From Bryobacterales bacterium (GTDB taxonomy: Bacteria; Acidobacteriota; Terriglobia; Bryobacterales; UBA6623): 64,000 nucleotides of DNA. The notes below the pieces were generated by a model. It saw nothing but the letters and a program-made list of their open reading frames with translations, had not been told where the DNA came from and ran no database searches. Shown piece after piece: positions 10,829 through 64,000 of the stretch (position 1 is the first letter of the stretch; the number at the start of each line of letters is the position of its first letter). The position numbers were made by a program, and so were the translations under genes. The stretch lies in NCBI GenBank assembly GCA_026713545.1, contig JAPOOG010000034.1:1-64000 (forward strand). Reading direction: 5' to 3'.

Positions 10829-11032
10829 AAGAGAAGCTTTGTCCGGAAGTCCATGGAAAAAGTACTTCTGCTGGACAATCGATGTATGGTCATGTGTTGA
10901 CGCAACCGGAGAGAGTGGCAGAAGGACCTTCGGCTGATTCCATATCACTCTCAAGTATCGTCTTGTTTCGTGACGTCAACCGTTTGTGGACTGACAGGTG
11001 TAGAATGGGGAAACTGGCGGCGAGGTGCTGGC

Positions 11033-12325
11033 ATGGGAGTGACACGGCGGGCATTTTTTCAGGGTAGTTTGATGGCCGGTGCGGCGGCTGTGGTCAGTGC
11101 GGTCCCGGAAGTGAAGGGGCGGAGTGGCTCCGGCATTGTTTCGCGGCCTTATTTCAACGTTCACCCGTTTATTGAGGCGAATCCAAAAGCGGTGTTCATT
11201 CGCCGGACGAATGTCGTGCACAAGTTCGACAACGAGCAGAAGCTCAAAGAAGGTCTGTCGCTGGCGCGGGAGATTTTTGTGCCGTCCCACGAGTCGGGGA
11301 TTCCGGTTTCCCACAAGGTGGTCCTCAAGCCGAACGTTTGCAGCGTGACGTCGAAAGACCGTCCGACCGAAGACATGTGGGGGACGGGGACGGACCCGCA
11401 GTTTTACGAAGGTATGGTGATGGGCCTCAAGGAAGTGGGGCTGAAAGACTTCACGTTTGTCGAGGCAAACAATTACCACAATTGGAATGTGCGCGGGTTC
11501 GTCGATATCAACGAGCGGCACGGCGTGAAGATGAACGAGTGCGAAAGGCGCGTGCGGAACTTCGAAGGAGGGTACCAGATGAACTGGACGAAGGTGCCCG
11601 AGCCGGTGGTCTACTCGCATATTCCGCACTACACCCCGGTGAACGACAAAGACTCGTGGATGCTCAACATCGCGAAGTGGAAGGCGCACGGAATGTGTCT
11701 GACACAGTCGGTGAAAAACGAGCAGGGGCTGGTGGTGAAGCCGTATGTGCGCTTCTGTCCGGGGTGGAGGATGGTGACGGGCGCGCCGGACTTCATGCAG
11801 CCGAATGTCCATCCGAAGGTATCAGAGCGTGTCAACAAGTTTTTCGAGAACCACCGGCGGCTGGGCTATGCGCGGTACGACTCGCCGGCGCCGCTGAGTC
11901 CGATGCATCAGGAGATCTGGGCGCACAAGACGTGCGACAACATGCAGACTCTGAACACCGGACTGGCGATGATCGAGGGAATCTACGGACGCGACGGGAA
12001 CGGCTTTCAGATCGGCAACGATTACATGGCGAACCTGGTGATGTTCAGTAAAGACAAGTTTCGGCTCGACATGATCGGTCTCTGGCTGGCCGGGCACGAG
12101 CCGGGGAATGTTAACCTGTACCGGATCGCCAAGGAACGCGGATTGAGCGATACGTTCAATCCATGGGAAGTGCCGGTCTACGAGTGGGTGAACGGCGAGG
12201 CTCAGCCGCGGAAGTTGACGGATTTCAAGAGGACGCCGCTGATTACCTACTACCTGCAGAAAGAAGGAGAGCCGGAATATCACCTTGTGGATGAGCCGTT
12301 TGATTACGACAAGGTGAAAGTCTGA
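11033..12325 (+). CDS. DUF362 domain-containing protein with Tat leader
   Basis: A 430-residue protein if read from the ATG at 11033, preceded by GAGG; a longer frame opens at 10970 but lacks signal features. The N-terminus 'MGVTRRAFFQGSLMAGAAAVVSA' is a twin-arginine leader. DUF362 features include 'VVLKPNVCSVTSKDRPTED', 'VGLKDFTFVEANNY', 'MLNIAKWKAHGMCLTQSVKNEQGLV' and 'NTGLAMIEGIYGRDGNGF'. DUF362 proteins often carry Fe-S ligands, but I see no Cys cluster here. The reaction is unknown. Its stop TGA is the first triplet of a dispersed repeat (12326-12502). Confidence 0.85.
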   Translation: MGVTRRAFFQGSLMAGAAAVVSAVPEVKGRSGSGIVSRPYFNVHPFIEANPKAVFIRRTNVVHKFDNEQKLKEGLSLAREIFVPSHESGIPVSHKVVLKPNVCSVTSKDRPTEDMWGTGTDPQFYEGMVMGLKEVGLKDFTFVEANNYHNWNVRGFVDINERHGVKMNECERRVRNFEGGYQMNWTKVPEPVVYSHIPHYTPVNDKDSWMLNIAKWKAHGMCLTQSVKNEQGLVVKPYVRFCPGWRMVTGAPDFMQPNVHPKVSERVNKFFENHRRLGYARYDSPAPLSPMHQEIWAHKTCDNMQTLNTGLAMIEGIYGRDGNGFQIGNDYMANLVMFSKDKFRLDMIGLWLAGHEPGNVNLYRIAKERGLSDTFNPWEVPVYEWVNGEAQPRKLTDFKRTPLITYYLQKEGEPEYHLVDEPFDYDKVKV

Positions 12326-12502
12326 CCTGCATGTCTCACCGCGCGGCGAGGTGAAGTGCGTGAGAGGGCCGTCAGGACGAGGCGCGCGCCGCTTGGCGCG
12401 CGCAGGCGTACTTGACAGTACGTCGAGCACGGCCAGCAAGCGCACGAGGTCATGGCGGTCGTATGGCGTGCTTCGGCCGCCGGGTGCTGAGACATGCAGG
12501 CT
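12326..12502 (-). repeat. Stop-codon-abutting inverted-end repeat, copy A
   Basis: It starts with CCTGCATGTCTCACC right after the DUF362 stop TGA and ends with GAGACATGCAGGCT, so the termini are inverted repeats. Inside are a GC-rich hairpin (12382-12403, GCGCGC arms) and CGTACTTGACAGTACG (12407-12422), a 6-bp-arm hairpin shared with copies B and C. Copies B (52201-52376) and C (62293-62470) run in the opposite sense. A short open frame inside is repeat-derived and was not called. Confidence 0.85.
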
Positions 12503-36373: not shown

Positions 36374-36523
36374 GGAAGCCCTCTAAATCGGGAGAATGCG
36401 AGCAATTAAGCCCTGGGGTCATTCTAACGTACTTTGTTCAACCACCTGTCGGTTGTCATGGTTTCATGGAGTGAACAGCATCGGGCCAGACGGCGCTAGC
36501 CCGTTCGCCGGAACAGAAGTCCT

Positions 36524-46944: not shown

Positions 46945-46989
46945 TGACCTGTATTTCTCACCACGCCACGTGGTGAGAAATACAGGTCA
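46945..46989. repeat. Solo perfect hairpin of the stop-codon repeat family (copy H)
   Basis: Two 21-base arms, 46945-46965 and 46969-46989, are exact reverse complements around a 3-base loop. Each arm reads from its outer edge TGACCTGTATTTCTCACC, the same terminal sequence as the larger copies. The copy therefore consists of the two ends only, without an interior. Confidence 0.92.
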
Positions 46990-51756: not shown

Positions 51757-52200
51757 GTGAAGTTGAAGATCCTCGTACTTTGCACCGGAAACTCCTGCCG
51801 CAGCCAGATGGCGGAGGGGCTGCTGAAGTCGTTCGATCCGCGCATCGAAGCGCACTCGGCCGGAACGAAGCCGGCGGCGCAGGTGAACCCCCATGCGACC
51901 CTTGTCATGAAGGAGATCGGCCTCGATATCTCGGGTGGCTATCCCAAGACGGTTGACGGCTTTCTCAACGAAGAGATCGATTACGTCATCACGGTCTGCG
52001 GGGACGCCGACGAGAACTGTCCTGTTTTCCAAGGCAACGTCGGCCGGAGGATGCACATCGGGTTTCCTGATCCGGCCGAAGCAACGGGCGCCGAGGGGGA
52101 AATCCTTGGCGTTTTCCGGCAGTCGCGCGACAACATCAAAGCCAAGTTCCACGAACTTTACCAGTCGGAGTTGAAGACGAAGCTCGACGCGGCGAGCTGA
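51757..52200 (+). CDS. arsC: Thioredoxin-coupled arsenate reductase (LMW phosphatase family)
   Basis: A 147-residue ArsC with the phosphatase loop C9-TGNSC-R15 ('CTGNSCRSQMAEG') and the two extra Cys, C81 and C88 ('CGDADENCPVF'), that relay the disulfide to thioredoxin as in the pI258 enzyme. The start at GTG 51757 fits the family; an upstream frame to 51550 has unrelated sequence. It reduces arsenate to arsenite. No arsR, acr3 or arsB lies next to it, so efflux is encoded elsewhere. Its stop TGA is the first triplet of repeat copy B. Confidence 0.9.
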   Translation: MKLKILVLCTGNSCRSQMAEGLLKSFDPRIEAHSAGTKPAAQVNPHATLVMKEIGLDISGGYPKTVDGFLNEEIDYVITVCGDADENCPVFQGNVGRRMHIGFPDPAEATGAEGEILGVFRQSRDNIKAKFHELYQSELKTKLDAAS

Positions 52201-52376
52201 CCTGCATTTCTCACCACTCGACGGCCGAAGCACGCGATACGACCGCTATGACTTCGTTGCGCTTGCTTGCCGTGCTCGACGTACTGTCAAGTACGCCTGC
52301 GCACGCCAAGCGGCTCGCGCATCGTCCTGACGGCCCTCTCACGCACTTCACCTCGCCGCGTGGTGAGACATGCAAG
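52201..52376 (+). repeat. Stop-codon-abutting inverted-end repeat, copy B
   Basis: It runs from CCTGCATTTCTCACC, just after arsC's TGA, to GGTGAGACATGCAAG, just before TCA, which is the complement of the next gene's stop. So both convergent genes end on the repeat's outer triplets. The internal hairpin CGTACTGTCAAGTACG is at 52280-52295, and the core matches copies A and C. Confidence 0.9.
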
Positions 52377-53219
52377 TCAGAGCCCCAGCAGATCCAATGT
52401 CGGGCTGTGGATCAGAGCTTCGATCTCTTCTTCGGTAAAGCGGGGAAGCCCCGTACCCTCGACCATGCGGTTAATATTGCGCAGGGCATCCAGCGTGGCT
52501 TCGGTCGTGGTAAACGGAAAGTCGGTCCCATAAAGCAGCTTGTCCCAGACGCCGTATTCCTTGGCGAGCATCAGGCCGTTGAAGAACTGCCACGGCCGAT
52601 AGTGCAGCGCCGAGATATCGGAGTAGAAGTTCGGCTGCTTGCGGATCATCACGATCGTATCTTCCATCCACGGATGACCCAGGTGGGCAATGATCATCTT
52701 CAGATCCGGGAACTGCAGCGCGACGTCTTCCAGCAGGATCGGCAGCGAGTATTTCAGTGGAGCCTTCGTCGGGAACGTTGTCCCCTGGTGAATCATGATC
52801 GGCAATTTGTACGCTTCGCAGAACTCGTAGACGGGCATCATTCGGTTGTCCGTCGGATGGATGTTCTGGTAGATCGGGCCGAGCTTGACTCCTTTGAGTC
52901 CCAGTTTCCATCCGTGCTCCAAGGTGTCGCGCACCTTGTCCACATACGGATCAACCGCCGCGAATCCGATGACCTTCTCGGGATATCGATTCTGGTAATC
53001 CGCGATGTATTCATTGGGCGTCATGATGCCGGAGTGAGCAGCGCGCAATCCGAAGACGATCACCTTGTCCACGCCGTTCATGGCCGCCATGTGCCGTTCC
53101 GGCGGGACGTGCAGATCCATTTTCTTGCCTTTGGCGCGAGCATTGGCCTCCGCCACAAACCCCTCGCTAACGTGCCCCGGACACTCCCAAATATGGCTAT
53201 GGCAATCGACGATCATCAC
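52377..53219 (-). CDS. Amidohydrolase-family (COG2159-like) hydrolase/decarboxylase
   Basis: A 280-residue TIM-barrel metal enzyme without signal peptide. The metal-binding H7-X-H9 is in 'IVDCHSHIW'; further His residues occur in 'LPIMIHQGTTFP' and 'MIIAHLGHPWMEDTI', and the Asp in 'LLYGTDFPF'. The 'YGTDFP' and 'HLG' motifs are those of the amidohydrolase-2 group that includes aminocarboxymuconate- and other aromatic-acid decarboxylases. It diverges from another amidohydrolase (53534) across 314 bp and ends on repeat copy B. The substrate is unknown. Confidence 0.86.
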   Translation of the reverse strand: MMIVDCHSHIWECPGHVSEGFVAEANARAKGKKMDLHVPPERHMAAMNGVDKVIVFGLRAAHSGIMTPNEYIADYQNRYPEKVIGFAAVDPYVDKVRDTLEHGWKLGLKGVKLGPIYQNIHPTDNRMMPVYEFCEAYKLPIMIHQGTTFPTKAPLKYSLPILLEDVALQFPDLKMIIAHLGHPWMEDTIVMIRKQPNFYSDISALHYRPWQFFNGLMLAKEYGVWDKLLYGTDFPFTTTEATLDALRNINRMVEGTGLPRFTEEEIEALIHSPTLDLLGL

Positions 53220-53533: not shown

Positions 53534-54532
53534 ATGACCGCATCTTTCTTTGCCGTTCAGGATCACGATCGTGAACTCTTCGACCGCGAGTTGAACGAAT
53601 TCCTGCCCGAGCGCATCTTCGATGCCCATGCGCACCTTTACGCCAAGGAACACTTCCGCAACGGGGCGCCGGGCATCGTCGGTGAAGGACCCGAGTCCGT
53701 CGGCCTCGAAGTCTACATCAATGCGATGAACGAACTGACTCCCGGACGCCACTATTCCGGGCTCTTCTTCGGGTTTCCTCACGCGCAGCTCGATATGGAG
53801 GCGGCGAACAACTTCCTTGCCGCCGAGGTACGGGCCGACCCGCACTCACGCGCGCAGATGCTCGTTCGACCCGGCATGGACGCCGAATCCATACGAGAAA
53901 CGGTGCGGCGCAATCACTTTGCAGGTCTCAAGTGCTACCACGTTTGGGCTACCGAACGTCCGACCTTTCAGGCGAAGGTGGAAAGCTATCTACCTGAAGA
54001 GCATGTGCGAGTGGCCCACGAGGAAGGGCTTTCGATCACGCTCCACATGGTGCGTAATCGCGCCATGGCCGACCCGCTCAATCAGCAGACGATCCGCGCT
54101 TTCGCCGAACGCTATCCGAACATGCGTTTCATCCTGGCGCATGCGGCGCGCGGATTCAATCCGAACCATACCATCGAGGGCATCGGCGCGCTGCGGGGCC
54201 TTCGCAACGTCTGGTGTGACACGAGCGCCGTAACCGACGGCGGTGCGTTCGAGGCAATCATCGAGACGCTCGGACACGACCGGCTGCTCTACGGCGCCGA
54301 CTTCCCCGTCACTCATGAACGGGGCCGTTGCGTCGCCATCGGCGATTCGTTCTTGTGGCTGTCGGAAAGCAACACCAATTTCGATACCGCTTACGCAGAC
54401 CTTCGGCCGACTCTGGTCGGTTTGGAGTCCCTGCGGGTCCTCAAGACGGCCTGCCGCAACATGCGGCTCAGCGATTCGCAGATCGAAGACGTTTTCTGGA
54501 ACAACGCCGCTTCGATGTATGAACTGAGCTAA
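53534..54532 (+). CDS. Amidohydrolase-family hydrolase
   Basis: A 332-residue TIM-barrel metal-dependent hydrolase, second of the cluster. Features: HXH in 'RIFDAHAHLYAKEHF', 'HFAGLKCYHVWATERPTF' with the Lys position, His in 'LSITLHMVRNR' and 'MRFILAHAARGFNPNHTIEG', and Asp in 'RLLYGADFPVTHERGR'. GGAG in 'CGGAGCAAC' precedes the ATG. It is larger than the neighbour at 52377 and shows no close similarity beyond the fold. The TAA stop overlaps the end of the convergent PhyH gene (4 bp) inside repeat fragment G. Confidence 0.86.
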   Translation: MTASFFAVQDHDRELFDRELNEFLPERIFDAHAHLYAKEHFRNGAPGIVGEGPESVGLEVYINAMNELTPGRHYSGLFFGFPHAQLDMEAANNFLAAEVRADPHSRAQMLVRPGMDAESIRETVRRNHFAGLKCYHVWATERPTFQAKVESYLPEEHVRVAHEEGLSITLHMVRNRAMADPLNQQTIRAFAERYPNMRFILAHAARGFNPNHTIEGIGALRGLRNVWCDTSAVTDGGAFEAIIETLGHDRLLYGADFPVTHERGRCVAIGDSFLWLSESNTNFDTAYADLRPTLVGLESLRVLKTACRNMRLSDSQIEDVFWNNAASMYELS

Positions 54533-55380
54533 GCCTGCATTTCTCCCCAACGGCTTGGATTAAGCGCCGGGGCTTCGATGCGCATGTTGGCCGGCTTGTT
54601 GCCGACATCGATATCCGCCCGCCGCTGGTTTCGATCACCCATCAGCTTCCGCACTTCCGCTGGGAGCTTCACCACTTCGTCCCAATCCCAATCCTCCACC
54701 TCTGCGAGCGGGCCCGCCCACGCCGGGCGGAAGGCCGCAGCCAACATCTCCCGCGGACGGTCGCCGCGATTCGGGAAATTGCCATGGAAAACCTTGTAGT
54801 TGAGAAATACGGCCGAGCCGGCCTTGGCTGTCACCATGACCTGCTCGGGATGTCCGTCATAGCGGTAATAGGGATTTCCCTCCGCATGCAATGACAGGTG
54901 TGAACGCGGGATCACCCGAAACGGCGAAATTTCCGGCGTAAGGTCGTCGAGGTAGTAGAGGACCCGAATCATCACCGGACAGGTATGTTTCGCTCCGAAA
55001 ATCGCGGACCCGTAAGGCTGGCCGTCGGTATGGAAGCTCACCCCCGGGTGCCCCGGCTCGGACCGTGCATAGTCGTAGCTCATCAGCACGAGATCATCAC
55101 CGAAGACCTTGCGGAGAAACTCCTCCGTACGAGGATGCGCGATCAACTCCGTGATCGCGCCACCGCAAAACTGCACAGCCGGACAACCTCTCTGGCGCGG
55201 CGAGTAGTCTACCGCGCGGGTTTCGAGCCGCGCCGTTTCCTCCTTGAGGCAGGCTAGCTGCTCAGCAGAGAGCAAGTCGGGGATCACCAGATATCCCTCC
55301 AGCTCGATCTGCCGCAGTTGCTCGCCGAAACCGAGCTTCGACCAATCTCGATCATCAAGGATGTAATCTTTAGTGGTCAT
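54529..55380 (-). CDS. Phytanoyl-CoA dioxygenase (PhyH) family protein
   Basis: A 283-residue Fe(II)/2-oxoglutarate-dependent dioxygenase. Start ATG 55380 ('MTTKDYILDDRDWSKLGFGEQLRQIELEGYLVIPDLLS') is preferred over the frame opening at 55488. The iron ligands are H117-X-D119 ('VSFHTDGQPYG') and H199 ('YKVFHGNFPNRGDRPR'), with the Arg further on binding oxoglutarate. It probably hydroxylates a small carboxylate or ectoine-like substrate. The last residues 'WGEMQA' are encoded by the arm of a stop-codon repeat end (GGGGAGAAATGCAGGCTTAG), and its stop overlaps the convergent amidohydrolase gene. Confidence 0.88.
   Translation of the reverse strand: MTTKDYILDDRDWSKLGFGEQLRQIELEGYLVIPDLLSAEQLACLKEETARLETRAVDYSPRQRGCPAVQFCGGAITELIAHPRTEEFLRKVFGDDLVLMSYDYARSEPGHPGVSFHTDGQPYGSAIFGAKHTCPVMIRVLYYLDDLTPEISPFRVIPRSHLSLHAEGNPYYRYDGHPEQVMVTAKAGSAVFLNYKVFHGNFPNRGDRPREMLAAAFRPAWAGPLAEVEDWDWDEVVKLPAEVRKLMGDRNQRRADIDVGNKPANMRIEAPALNPSRWGEMQA
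54533..54549 (+). repeat. Single-end fragment of the stop-codon repeat (copy G)
   Basis: GCCTGCATTTCTCCCCA follows the amidohydrolase TAA at once. The complementary strand ends the PhyH gene. No partner arm is seen within 400 bp. Confidence 0.6.
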
Positions 55381-55862
55381 ATCCAGACCTGCCTTTCGCA
55401 TCACGTGTCGAGACGATGCGCATGAGAAGGACGTCAGGACGAGTCGCAAGCGGATTGGAGTGCGGAAGTGCACTTGATCGCCCATCAAGAACAGCCGGCA
55501 AGCTTAGACAGCGCGTGGTAAAAGTCACGCAGGCGGCGCTACACGCCCAGGGGCGGATTACGTAAGGCGAGGGCACTCCAGGAACGCAGCGCCGCGCCCT
55601 CCGCGCCTTTTTTCCTCGTAGGCCGGAAGCGGTGCGTAACCCTTCGGGCGACGGACGTCTTTTTTGTTCCAACGGCGGTTCTGAGATTGCTGCCCAGCGC
55701 GACCACGGAGGCGACCTCCTAAGATCGTCGGCTTTGTCGTTCGCTCTTTCCTTCGCAAGGATGAGGTCACCCGGACCGCCATCCTCCTCACTCTGCGCCG
55801 AGCGACCGCAGTTTCCCGCCGTGCTTTTTCCTTCGTGCCAAGGGACTTTTGCCACAGGCTGT
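55381..55862. other. Gene-free stretch between PhyH and MFS genes
   Basis: No gene is evident in about 480 bases. It carries the PhyH promoter region on the minus strand and, near 55835-55861, a CAGCCTGTGGCAAAAG motif (minus strand) like the one after tex. A long minus-strand frame across it has no family and overlaps the MFS gene in another phase, so it was rejected. Confidence 0.45.
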
Positions 55863-59979: not shown

Positions 59980-60762
59980 ATGACCAAGAGCCGTGTTCTC
60001 GCCAAACTCCGTGCTGGTGACTTCGTCAAGGTCGCCGGCATCAGCCGCGTCATGCATCCCTGGCTAGCCGAGACCGTCGGCCGCATTGGATACGATTGCA
60101 TCTGGCTCGACCTGGAGCACCGTCCCTGGGGATACGACGCCATCGACCCCATCTCGCTCGCCTGCCGCTCCACGGGTATCGACCTGATGGCGCGGATTCA
60201 CAAAGCAGGCTACGGCGACCCCATGCGCGCTTTGGAATTCGGAGCGAACGGACTCATGGTGCCTCACATCCGCAGCGCGCAAGAAGCTCGACAGTGGGGG
60301 GAATGGTCGCGTTCCCCGCCACTCGGCAAGCGCGGCATGGACGGCGCAGGCGCCGATGCCGACTACGCACTCTCCAATCCCAGGGAATACCTGGAGCACG
60401 TCGCGCAGGAAGTCTTTCTCGTATTCCAGATCGAGGACAAGGAGGCTGTCGAGGCCATCGGCGAGATCGCCGACATCGAAGGCTTCGACGTTTTCTTCGT
60501 CGGCATGGGCGATCTCAGTCTCAGCTACGGGGTGCCATTCGACTTCGGCAACCCGATCCTGCAAGAGGCCCTCGAACGCGTCGCCGAGGCCGCCCGTAAA
60601 ACCGGACGCTGGTGGGGAACGCCCACCGGCACTCCCGAGCACGCCCAGCGGATCATCAACCTCGGCGGCCGCATGATCACCGCCGGCGGCGACCACATGG
60701 CCCTGCTCAAAGGCTTCCAGAACTCTTTCGAAGACTTCTCAAGCGTACGGTTGCCCAGATAG
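59980..60762 (+). CDS. HpcH/HpaI aldolase (citrate lyase beta-like) family protein
   Basis: A 260-residue class II aldolase of the HpaI type cleaving or joining pyruvate with aldehydes. Motifs: 'CIWLDLEHRPWGYDAI' (E46-H47), 'LMARIHKAGYGD' (R72 for the substrate carboxylate), 'EFGANGLMVPHI', 'FLVFQIEDKEAVEAI' with the metal Glu, and 'FFVGMGDLSLSYGVP' with the metal Asp. It is divergent from the amidohydrolase operon and probably acts in the same catabolic route. It ends with TAG, the first triplet of repeat fragment D. Confidence 0.9.
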   Translation: MTKSRVLAKLRAGDFVKVAGISRVMHPWLAETVGRIGYDCIWLDLEHRPWGYDAIDPISLACRSTGIDLMARIHKAGYGDPMRALEFGANGLMVPHIRSAQEARQWGEWSRSPPLGKRGMDGAGADADYALSNPREYLEHVAQEVFLVFQIEDKEAVEAIGEIADIEGFDVFFVGMGDLSLSYGVPFDFGNPILQEALERVAEAARKTGRWWGTPTGTPEHAQRIINLGGRMITAGGDHMALLKGFQNSFEDFSSVRLPR

Positions 60763-60798
60763 CCTGCATGTCTCACCACCCGACGGCCGAAGCACGCG
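60763..60798 (+). repeat. Left fragment of the stop-codon repeat (copy D)
   Basis: CCTGCATGTCTCACCACC followed by CGACGGCCGAAGCACGCGA directly after the aldolase TAG, then diverging into the CGTGATTC-type repeat at 60824. Confidence 0.8.
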
Positions 60799-60901: not shown

Positions 60902-61045
60902 CCTGCATGTCTCACCACCCGAAGGGTGAAGGAGGCGATTTGGCAACTACGCCTGCGCGCGCCTTTTTCCTCCGCCCGGCTCGCGCCTCGTCCTGACGGC
61001 CCTCTCACGCACTTCACTTCGCCGCGTGGTGAGAAGAAATACAGG
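60902..61045 (+). repeat. Stop-codon-abutting repeat, copy E
   Basis: It begins CCTGCATGTCTCACCACC, contains CGTCCTGACGGCCCTCTCAC and GCACTTCACTTCGCCGCG, and ends GGTGAGAAGAAATACAGG. The flanking triplets are TAG on the left (60899-60901) and CTA on the right, the complement of the stop TAG of the minus-strand gene at 61046. Confidence 0.85.
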
Positions 61046-62263
61046 CTATGTCTCGAGGCGGCGTGTCTCTTCGACCAGATCCGGAACACCGATGCGATAG
61101 ACCGCCGGGAGCCCTTCCCGATCACTCACGAAATAGATCAACTGGCTGTCCGGAGAAAAAACGGGCTCCGGGGCGGACGCCCAAGGATCGTCGCGGTCCG
61201 TTCCCGCCAGAGGGTAGGCCTTGCCGGTCGAGGCGTGCTCACATACCGTGATCTCGCGCTGCAGACGGCTGAACAGGAGGTAAATATTGGGCCCCGCCAA
61301 GCTGCGGCTCGCCCCCACGATGACCGAGTTGTCGCGATTCGCGCTCAACCAGCCGAAACGCGTGCAGCGCGAAACGATCCGCTCCTTGCCGGTGTTGACA
61401 TCGATACATCGCACCGTAGCCCTGCGTCCGGTCTCATCCGGATAGAAGACATAGCAAACCTCGCTACCGTGCCCGGACCAGTATTCATGCCCCAACTGCT
61501 CTGCCGCTTTTCGGGGACGCAGATTCCTCGGGCCATCCGAACCCGGGCGCATTAGCCACAACCGCGCGTCCACCTTGTCCCAAGGGCCTTCGTGGCAATA
61601 CAGAACATCATTGCTCCTCGGGCGAAACTGAGGATGGGCTATCCATGCGTTTACCCCTACCAACAGGCGAGCCGTCCCCTGACGGAGGTCCACGAGCTGA
61701 ATCCGGCAGCGCGGCTCTTGGGAGAACTGCCGTTCGAAGCCCATCACCCAATCCTCCTCATGCATCTCGACGAGGGCGGCGTATCGATTCTGATCAGATA
61801 CGGCCAGATGCCCGGTCATTCGCCAGCCGGACTCGGTCCGATAAATCCTGCGCTCACGGCCTCTCTTTGCGGACGCTCGCTTCAACTCGTTCCCTTGAAG
61901 AAAGTAGAAGTTCTTTTCTCTACGGTCGAGCGTCGGAGAATAAGGATGGACACCCGGCCCACCTGTGAGTTGCACCATGTCGGCCTTCGGAAGATTCAAG
62001 CGGAAGATCTGCCGCAAACCCGTGCGCTCCCCCACCACCAAGGCGAAGGAGTTGGACCGCGACAGAAATCGATGGTGATAGTGAGGCAGGTGATGCAGGT
62101 GGCCGGGAGGTGTAAGGCGGTACGTGAGCCGCTCCGTCAGTGGATCGGGCAACACCGAAGCCAAGCCGGCAAAGCGGGCTCCCCGTCCTGAGGATTGGCG
62201 TTGGGCAGAGGCCAACAGCGGCGCTGTAGCGGACAAAAACGCTCTGCGGCTCAGCGTTTTCAT
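61046..62263 (-). CDS. Oligogalacturonate-lyase-like (PL22) propeller protein
   Basis: A 405-residue protein with Tat-type leader ('MKTLSRRAFLSATAPLLASAQ'). PL22 features: 'LPDPLTERLTYRLTPPGHLHHLPHYHHRFLSRSNSFALVVGERTGLRQIFRLNL', 'MVQLTGGPGVHPYSPTLDRREKNFYFLQGNELKR', 'SNDVLYCHEGPWDKVDARLWLM', 'LGHEYWSGHGSEVCYVF' and 'SPDSQLIYFVSDREG'. The His/Arg-rich residues match the positions used by the seven-bladed lyase for metal and substrate. The enzyme would split unsaturated galacturonate dimers outside the cytoplasm. It ends on TAG of repeat copy E. Confidence 0.82.
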   Translation of the reverse strand: MKTLSRRAFLSATAPLLASAQRQSSGRGARFAGLASVLPDPLTERLTYRLTPPGHLHHLPHYHHRFLSRSNSFALVVGERTGLRQIFRLNLPKADMVQLTGGPGVHPYSPTLDRREKNFYFLQGNELKRASAKRGRERRIYRTESGWRMTGHLAVSDQNRYAALVEMHEEDWVMGFERQFSQEPRCRIQLVDLRQGTARLLVGVNAWIAHPQFRPRSNDVLYCHEGPWDKVDARLWLMRPGSDGPRNLRPRKAAEQLGHEYWSGHGSEVCYVFYPDETGRRATVRCIDVNTGKERIVSRCTRFGWLSANRDNSVIVGASRSLAGPNIYLLFSRLQREITVCEHASTGKAYPLAGTDRDDPWASAPEPVFSPDSQLIYFVSDREGLPAVYRIGVPDLVEETRRLET

Positions 62264-62292: not shown

Positions 62293-62470
62293 CCTGCATG
62301 TCTCACCACCCGACGGCCGAAGCACGCGATACGACCGCCAAGACTTCGTTGCGCTTGCTTGCCGTGCTCGACGTACTGTCAAGTACGTCTGGGCGCGACA
62401 AGGGGCGTGCACCCCGCCCTGACGGCCCACTCACGCACATCACCTCACCACGTGGCGAGAAAAGCAGGGC
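62293..62470 (+). repeat. Stop-codon repeat family, copy C
   Basis: TAA then CCTGCATGTCTCACCACCCG, GCCGAAGCACGCGATACGAC, hairpin CGTACTGTCAAGTACG (62372-62387), CCTGACGGCCCACTCACGCA, and ending around GTGGCGAGAAAAGCAGGG. This copy lies 5' of the PL22 gene and about 46 bp beyond the methyltransferase stop, so it is not itself at a stop codon. Confidence 0.85.
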
Positions 62471-63352: not shown

Positions 63353-63418
63353 CCTGCATTTCTCACCACCTTGTATGTGGCAAGGTAGGGGGAAGAGGTG
63401 AGTGGGGAGATATGCAGG
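63353..63418 (-). repeat. Stop-codon repeat family, short copy F
   Basis: CCTGCATTTCTCACCACC at the left, then an unrelated 40-base interior, then GGGGAGATATGCAGG. Its right outer triplet CTA is the complement of the sulfatase stop TAG. The interior differs from copies A-C, so only the ends are conserved. Confidence 0.75.
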
Positions 63419-64000
63419 CTAAGCATGCATCGTTTCGAGGACTGCCCTGAGTTTCTCGCGCGCTACGGCGGAGTCGGGGGTGTCGTGAACCGGAAAGATG
63501 GGATGCTCTTCGAGTTCGTCGTTGGGGATATCGAACAGACGCTCTTTTTCTTCGTATGTTTCTTCGTAGAGCTTGTAGCGCTTGTCGCGGGCAAATCGGA
63601 CCAGCTTGTAACGCTCCTTGCCGTGTCCCGGAAGAGGATCGTAGTGAAACATCACCCAATCGCGTGGATCACCGGATTCGCCCTTGAGTTGCGGTAGAAA
63701 ACTGCGGCCATCGAGGGTCATGTCGGGGAGAGCGTCAGCGCCGGTGGCTTCGAGAATCGTTGGTAGGAAATCGGTCGAGTCGATCAAGTCGTCGTTGACG
63801 CGGCCCTCGGGGATCACGCCCTTCCAACTTGCGATCAAGGGCACGCGAGTGCCGGCATCGGTGGTGTTTCCCTTCCCGCCTCGAATCACCTTATCGCCCA
63901 GACGCGACTCGATCTCGCGCGGCGTGCCGTTGTCGGAATAGTAGAGGATCAGGGTGTTTTCAGAGATGCCGAGTTCCTCAACCTTGTCGACGATACGGCC
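63419..64000 (-). CDS. Sulfatase family protein, C-terminal part (cut by window edge)
   Basis: The last 193 residues of an arylsulfatase-type enzyme; the start lies beyond the right edge. The visible part starts 'GRIVDKVEELGISENTLILYYSDNG', the usual late active-site motif, and has 'RGGKGNTTDAGTRVPLIASWKG' and 'STDFLPTILEATGADALPDMTLDGRSFLPQL' before a C-terminal domain ('DWVMFHYDPLPGHGKERYKLVRFARDKRYKLY', 'FDIPNDELEEHPIF'). The Cys/Ser-formylglycine site is not in the window. It would release sulfate from sulfated glycans, in keeping with the glycan-degrading genes. It ends with TAG abutting repeat copy F. Confidence 0.9.
   Translation of the reverse strand, partial: GRIVDKVEELGISENTLILYYSDNGTPREIESRLGDKVIRGGKGNTTDAGTRVPLIASWKGVIPEGRVNDDLIDSTDFLPTILEATGADALPDMTLDGRSFLPQLKGESGDPRDWVMFHYDPLPGHGKERYKLVRFARDKRYKLYEETYEEKERLFDIPNDELEEHPIFPVHDTPDSAVAREKLRAVLETMHA

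Follow-up and report, generated by a model that had tools for sequence, protein, structure and literature searches.

A stretch of 64,000 nucleotides from a Bryobacterales genome (Acidobacteriota; 5.61 Mb in 170 contigs, hereafter G000), which we call the window, raises the question of why copies of a short repeat begin exactly where genes end. The copy under study (positions 12326-12500) starts with CCTGCATGTCTCACC, closes with the inverted copy of this end (...GCTGAGACATGCAGG) and is directly preceded by TGA. We consider it very probable that it belongs to a high-copy MITE family whose mobility is provided in trans by a DDE transposase of the IS1380 family, with a YTAR target that can also serve as a stop codon. 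As a type of element it is ordinary, and the register in which it lands is the curious part.

A high-copy family of palindromic repeats

By exact-word counts over whole genomes, the 15-base end CCTGYATKTCTCACC occurs 332 times in G000 and 737 times, i.e. more than twice as often, in G001, one of two same-genus genomes used for comparison. The reversed-pattern control of this end was found 0 times in every genome counted, and the existence of a family of inverted-end repeats, as proposed in the first-pass annotation, is thereby borne out. The exact word is absent from the second comparison genome, G002, and from the remaining members of the family that were searched; G002 instead carries a diverged version of the family with CCCGCAT ends and an interior identity of approximately 80-84%. 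Within the window the end motif was observed 23 times at up to three mismatches, against 7.7 expected. Inverted ends were paired in a sample of both genomes (about 0.83 Mb from G000, 1.04 Mb from G001), which yielded 76 and 111 elements, respectively (187 in all), most commonly 176 or 177 bp long. These elements are short, non-coding and multi-copy with terminal inverted repeats, as is typical of MITEs. The copies in the window and their flanks are collected in Table 1.

Folding of the full-length element gives a single end-to-end hairpin (-76.5 kcal/mol, z -4.4), and the 39-bp copy at 46948 forms a perfect stem (-41 kcal/mol). Shorter forms of 34, 39 and 66 bp appear to have lost the tip. The site of the 144-bp copy at 60902-61045 holds a 39-bp hairpin copy in G001 (L077 7601-7639), indicating that the interiors of the palindromes change quickly. 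Several positions, -1 among them, co-vary between the two arms, which may reflect subfamily history or templated repair. A search with Rfam at gathering thresholds recovered 0 matches within the window. The G001 site corresponding to the copy at 52201-52376 (L077 near 15690) carries an apparent short degenerate remnant of an element end, and the upstream gene there is four codons longer.

Table 1. Repeat copies, flanking targets and an unoccupied target in the window
Feature	Position	Strand	Remarks
Left 4-bp target copy, CTGA	12322..12325	+	Its TGA ends ORF 10970-12325
MITE copy under study, 175 bp	12326..12500	.	
Right 4-bp target copy, CTAA	12501..12504	+	Matches the left copy at 3/4 positions
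Empty target, CTAG	36496..36499	+	Filled in G001 by a 176-bp copy (L079 12603-12778)
39-bp hairpin-only (tip-deleted) copy	46948..46986	.	Flanks CTGA/TCAG; empty in G001 (GTAG)
176-bp copy	52201..52376	.	Between two convergent genes; TGA stops of both are the boundary triplets
Single degenerate end	54534..54548	+	Flank TAAG; gene stop TAA one base off
Left end of decayed copy	60763..60777	+	Flush with aldolase stop TAG
144-bp copy	60902..61045	.	Right end flush with stop TAG of PL22 gene (minus strand)
176-bp copy	62293..62468	.	Left flank CTAA, right end decayed; also filled in G001
66-bp shortened copy	63353..63418	.	Right end flush with stop TAG of sulfatase gene (minus strand); filled in G001

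Target duplication and the IS1380 partner

The four bases directly outside the end (-4 to -1) have the composition Y-T-R-R, and -5 is already random. Flanks that form direct repeats at exactly 4 bp were seen 30 times in G001, against 13.7 expected and a maximum of 24 in 1000 shuffles, and 11 times in G000, against 5.3 expected and a shuffle maximum of 11; no comparable excess of direct matches was detected at lengths 2, 3 or 5-8. The duplication hence has the constant length typical of a MITE target, with the consensus YTAR and CTAG as its best form, albeit perfect in only 41 of the 187 elements. Comparison of G000 with G001 also uncovered insertion polymorphism between the sister genomes, wherein a site filled in one is empty in the other, and the orthologous empty sites carry the tetramer once. 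One such empty site in the window, opposite L079 19731, reads TTAG, and the filled copy has TTAG on both sides; the empty site opposite L129 325 reads CTAG. Some empty-site targets do not conform to YTAR (GTAG, CTAC, CTCG, CCAT and TTGG), which counts against our preferred explanation.

The 4-bp direct repeats, together with the single tetramer in empty sites, indicate that the outer triplet is the inner part, three bases long, of the target duplication and rule it out as a part of the element. The first-pass annotation had read this triplet plus CCTGCAT as a family signature evolved for gene 3' ends, which fails inasmuch as the triplet lies outside the element, within the duplicated YTAR target. 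Nor is the triplet always TGA, TAG or TAA, as had been claimed: in the window it is CTG at 63353, TGC at 62468 and AAG at 54534, and it is one of the three stops at 132 of 209 ends in G000 and 229 of 317 ends in G001, the chief others being CAG and TGG.

A search for IS1380-type DDE domains identified two intact ISs in G001 (L179 1256-2979 and L176 1257-2979), which carry either CCTGCATTTCTCACC or CCCGCATTTCTCACC at one terminus and CCCGGATATCTCACC at the opposite one, and thereby constitute autonomous partners with ends matching those of the MITEs. Their target duplications are perfect (CTAG/CTAG and CTAA/CTAA). Matches in G000 (L177, L180 and L185) are all broken or partial. The 487-aa transposase belongs to the IS1380 family, scoring 385 bits against NF033539 (cut-off 180), and the G001 transposases score 494 and 489 bits against PF13701 (cut-off 34.7). 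Relatives from Singulisphaera (14 copies), Thauera (3) and Arenicellales (3) possess the same type of end and a perfect YTAR duplication in 20 of 20 copies, and IS1380 relatives with this common end and target are found in several phyla; further relatives agree, in a search that itself required equal flanks. The window elements thus share with the IS1380 family the terminal inverted repeat and the 4-bp YTAR duplication, but at about 176 bp they lack a transposase, and comparison by eye revealed no resemblance to the ISs beyond approximately 17 bp of the end.

This suggests that the IS1380 transposase moves the MITEs. It would recognize the roughly 15-bp terminal inverted repeat CCTGCATKTCTCACC and insert the element at a 4-bp YTAR, best of all CTAG, with duplication of the target, and the outer "stop" triplet would be the target copy without its first base. 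The target-site duplication for which the first-pass annotation had recommended a search was accordingly recovered at 4 bp, and so was an associated transposase with matching ends, though of the IS1380 family and not of the RAYT type that had also been considered.

Insertion at gene ends

In the window, six gene stops fall exactly on boundary triplets: TGA at 12323-12325 (ORF 10970-12325), TGA at 52198-52200 (LMWPc/arsC-like), TGA at 52377-52379 on the minus strand (amidohydrolase), TAG at 60760-60762 (HpcH/HpaI aldolase), and, both on the minus strand, TAG at 61046-61048 (PL22) and TAG at 63419-63421 (sulfatase). The list originally drawn up needs amendment at two points: the stop of the amidohydrolase gene 53534-54532, TAA, misses the boundary by one base (TAA, then G, then CCTGCAT), and no gene ends on the copy at 46948-46986. 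The protein encoded by 10970-12325, earlier labelled DUF362, had no match in a Pfam search.

For the sample of 187 elements, gene ends were taken from a simple codon-usage gene caller. The stop is exactly the boundary triplet at 65 of the 198 ends that face a gene 3' end, with every other distance accounting for 3 or fewer, and only 3 genes have a 3' end that overlaps the element. Among nine well-aligned empty orthologous sites (a set that excludes the geneless 46948 site and two poorly aligned matches) eight have an in-frame stop at the same codon. The earlier suggestion of a MITE targeting stop codons was hence essentially right, given the target duplication, a transposase with matching ends and insertions that coincide exactly with native stops. 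About two thirds of the elements, however, lie away from stop codons.

To what extent the target motif accounts for this landing can be gauged from the free YTAR sites, which, in gaps that separate neighbouring genes, are stop codons in the right register in 27% of cases where the genes are in tandem and 40% where they converge. Elements sit on stops in 34 of 91 cases (37%, P 0.02) and 26 of 49 cases (53%, P 0.04) in the two kinds of gap, respectively, i.e. about 1.35 times the context-matched expectation, which counts against our explanation as a full account. Two early null models, a random non-coding base (0.13%) and free YTAR sites outside called genes (15.6%), were rejected as they overstated the enrichment relative to the gap-restricted 27-40%. 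Because stop codons often fit YTAR, which is rare within genes, the motif predicts the greater part of the landing, and neither a RAYT, a terminator function nor an element evolved toward gene ends need be invoked; the evolved preference for gene 3' ends proposed earlier thus gives way to the availability of YTAR. The small remaining excess could stem from selection against near-promoter insertion or from a weak 3'-end benefit.

Such an excess would also be consistent with a domesticated 3'-end element, the copies of which are kept as their hairpins terminate transcription or protect mRNA 3' ends, and this proposal, which we regard as unlikely, can additionally draw on the strength of the hairpins, the co-variation of the arms and the over-representation of convergent gaps. 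Against it stand the two thirds of elements off stop codons, the lack of any terminator-like call at element copies in the scanned stretch and the lack of a U-tract after the hairpins. The 3'-termination hairpin entertained in the first-pass annotation would likewise call for the U-tract that follows the hairpin of an intrinsic terminator.

Under transposition by IS1380, the landing would follow from the target: YTAR includes TAA or TAG, and with insertions within genes being purged, many of the harmless targets would be natural stops. Insertion past the fourth base would preserve both the reading frame and the stop, and the gene-facing target copy would afterwards drift only among TAG, TGA and TAA. 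In the gene-facing tetramers the first base indeed varies freely ahead of TAG, TGA or TAA, as would be expected if the stop were conserved while the rest drifts, and purifying selection is the probable agent maintaining the gene stop.

Mismatched flanks and related systems

The two 4-bp flank copies differ in 146 of 187 MITEs, as against identity in 22 of 22 autonomous ISs. The mismatch persists in MITE copies with little interior divergence, and simple ageing hence does not explain it. Another possibility is that element bodies are homogenized by gene conversion, with old insertions looking young. The 4-bp target copies of the MITEs disagree far more often than their ends diverge.

The eukaryotic transposon piggyBac has the 4-bp target TTAA. 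By analogy, the 4-nt flank might travel with the element as an overhang, such that the tetramer is partly donor-derived and the element supplies its own stop. This is decidedly unlikely, notwithstanding the frequent mismatch of the flanking copies, four clean empty/filled pairs (L079 12603, L126 12248, L129 325 and L040 1264) in which one side is the target and the other is two bases off, and the use of IS1380 as an outgroup to piggyBac (PMC10813416). Perfect duplications in all 20 autonomous copies of the relatives argue against a carried overhang, as do the weak inward tetramer bias in elements without a gene reading in and, with weak power, the observation that near-identical copies share flank tetramers no more than random pairs. 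It is highly doubtful, too, that the mobile unit includes the tetramer as a semi-heritable component, a 4-nt overhang that brings an in-frame stop (TAG, TGA or TAA) and rewrites that of the host gene; a heritable tetramer was rejected in view of close copies without shared tetramers. While piggyBac is related to IS1380 (PMC10813416), it differs from the window family in its eukaryotic distribution and strict TTAA target, and the seamless behavior that characterizes it is only hypothetical for the window family.

Dispersal of REP/BIME elements by a RAYT (Y1) transposase, which the palindromic, intergenic and high-copy nature of the repeats might recall, is extremely improbable in light of the 4-bp target duplication, the DDE IS with matching ends and the 0 matches to Y1_Tnp (PF01797) in G000, with control genomes positive. 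Just as improbable is a chance or gene-calling artefact, wherein interrupted genes merely seem to stop at a triplet that happens to be a stop, as is the case at roughly two thirds of all boundaries: under interruption, genes that cross the boundary in another frame should outnumber the flush ones by about two to one, yet 3 were seen against 65, and the element-free sister sites have the stop at the same codon in eight of nine cases.

Among known systems, MITEPsy1 of Pseudomonas syringae, a 100-bp MITE, likewise uses CTAG or YTAA as its insertion site and duplicates 4 nt, but has ends GGAAGGTCTGAAAAAGCC and is thought to derive from ISPsy2 (PMC3189936); a text search of that paper found no stop-codon landing. 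The target of IS5 is also YTAR (PMC10359306). RUP, Correia/NEMIS and similar bacterial MITEs are also small palindromic non-coding repeats mobilized in trans, but mostly have TA-type ends and are A+T-rich (PMC2229807), whereas the window family targets a 4-bp YTAR and its body is rich in G+C. In the part of the literature covered, no publication turned up that describes IS1380 MITEs or that accounts for stop-codon landing through a target motif; IS1380 would thus join the IS families with MITEs, and a repeat family of several hundred copies is tied to a specific IS. A short target motif spelling "stop" would provide a safe harbor in a gene-dense, G+C-rich genome, given that such a target is uncommon within genes and insertion right after it spares the gene. 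Many insertions being polymorphic between sister genomes, they also offer material on post-insertion stop-codon change.

The window contains a second repeat of approximately 350 bp (about 55505-55862), which is a separate mobile repeat, having no counterpart at the orthologous place in G001 and being present elsewhere in that genome.
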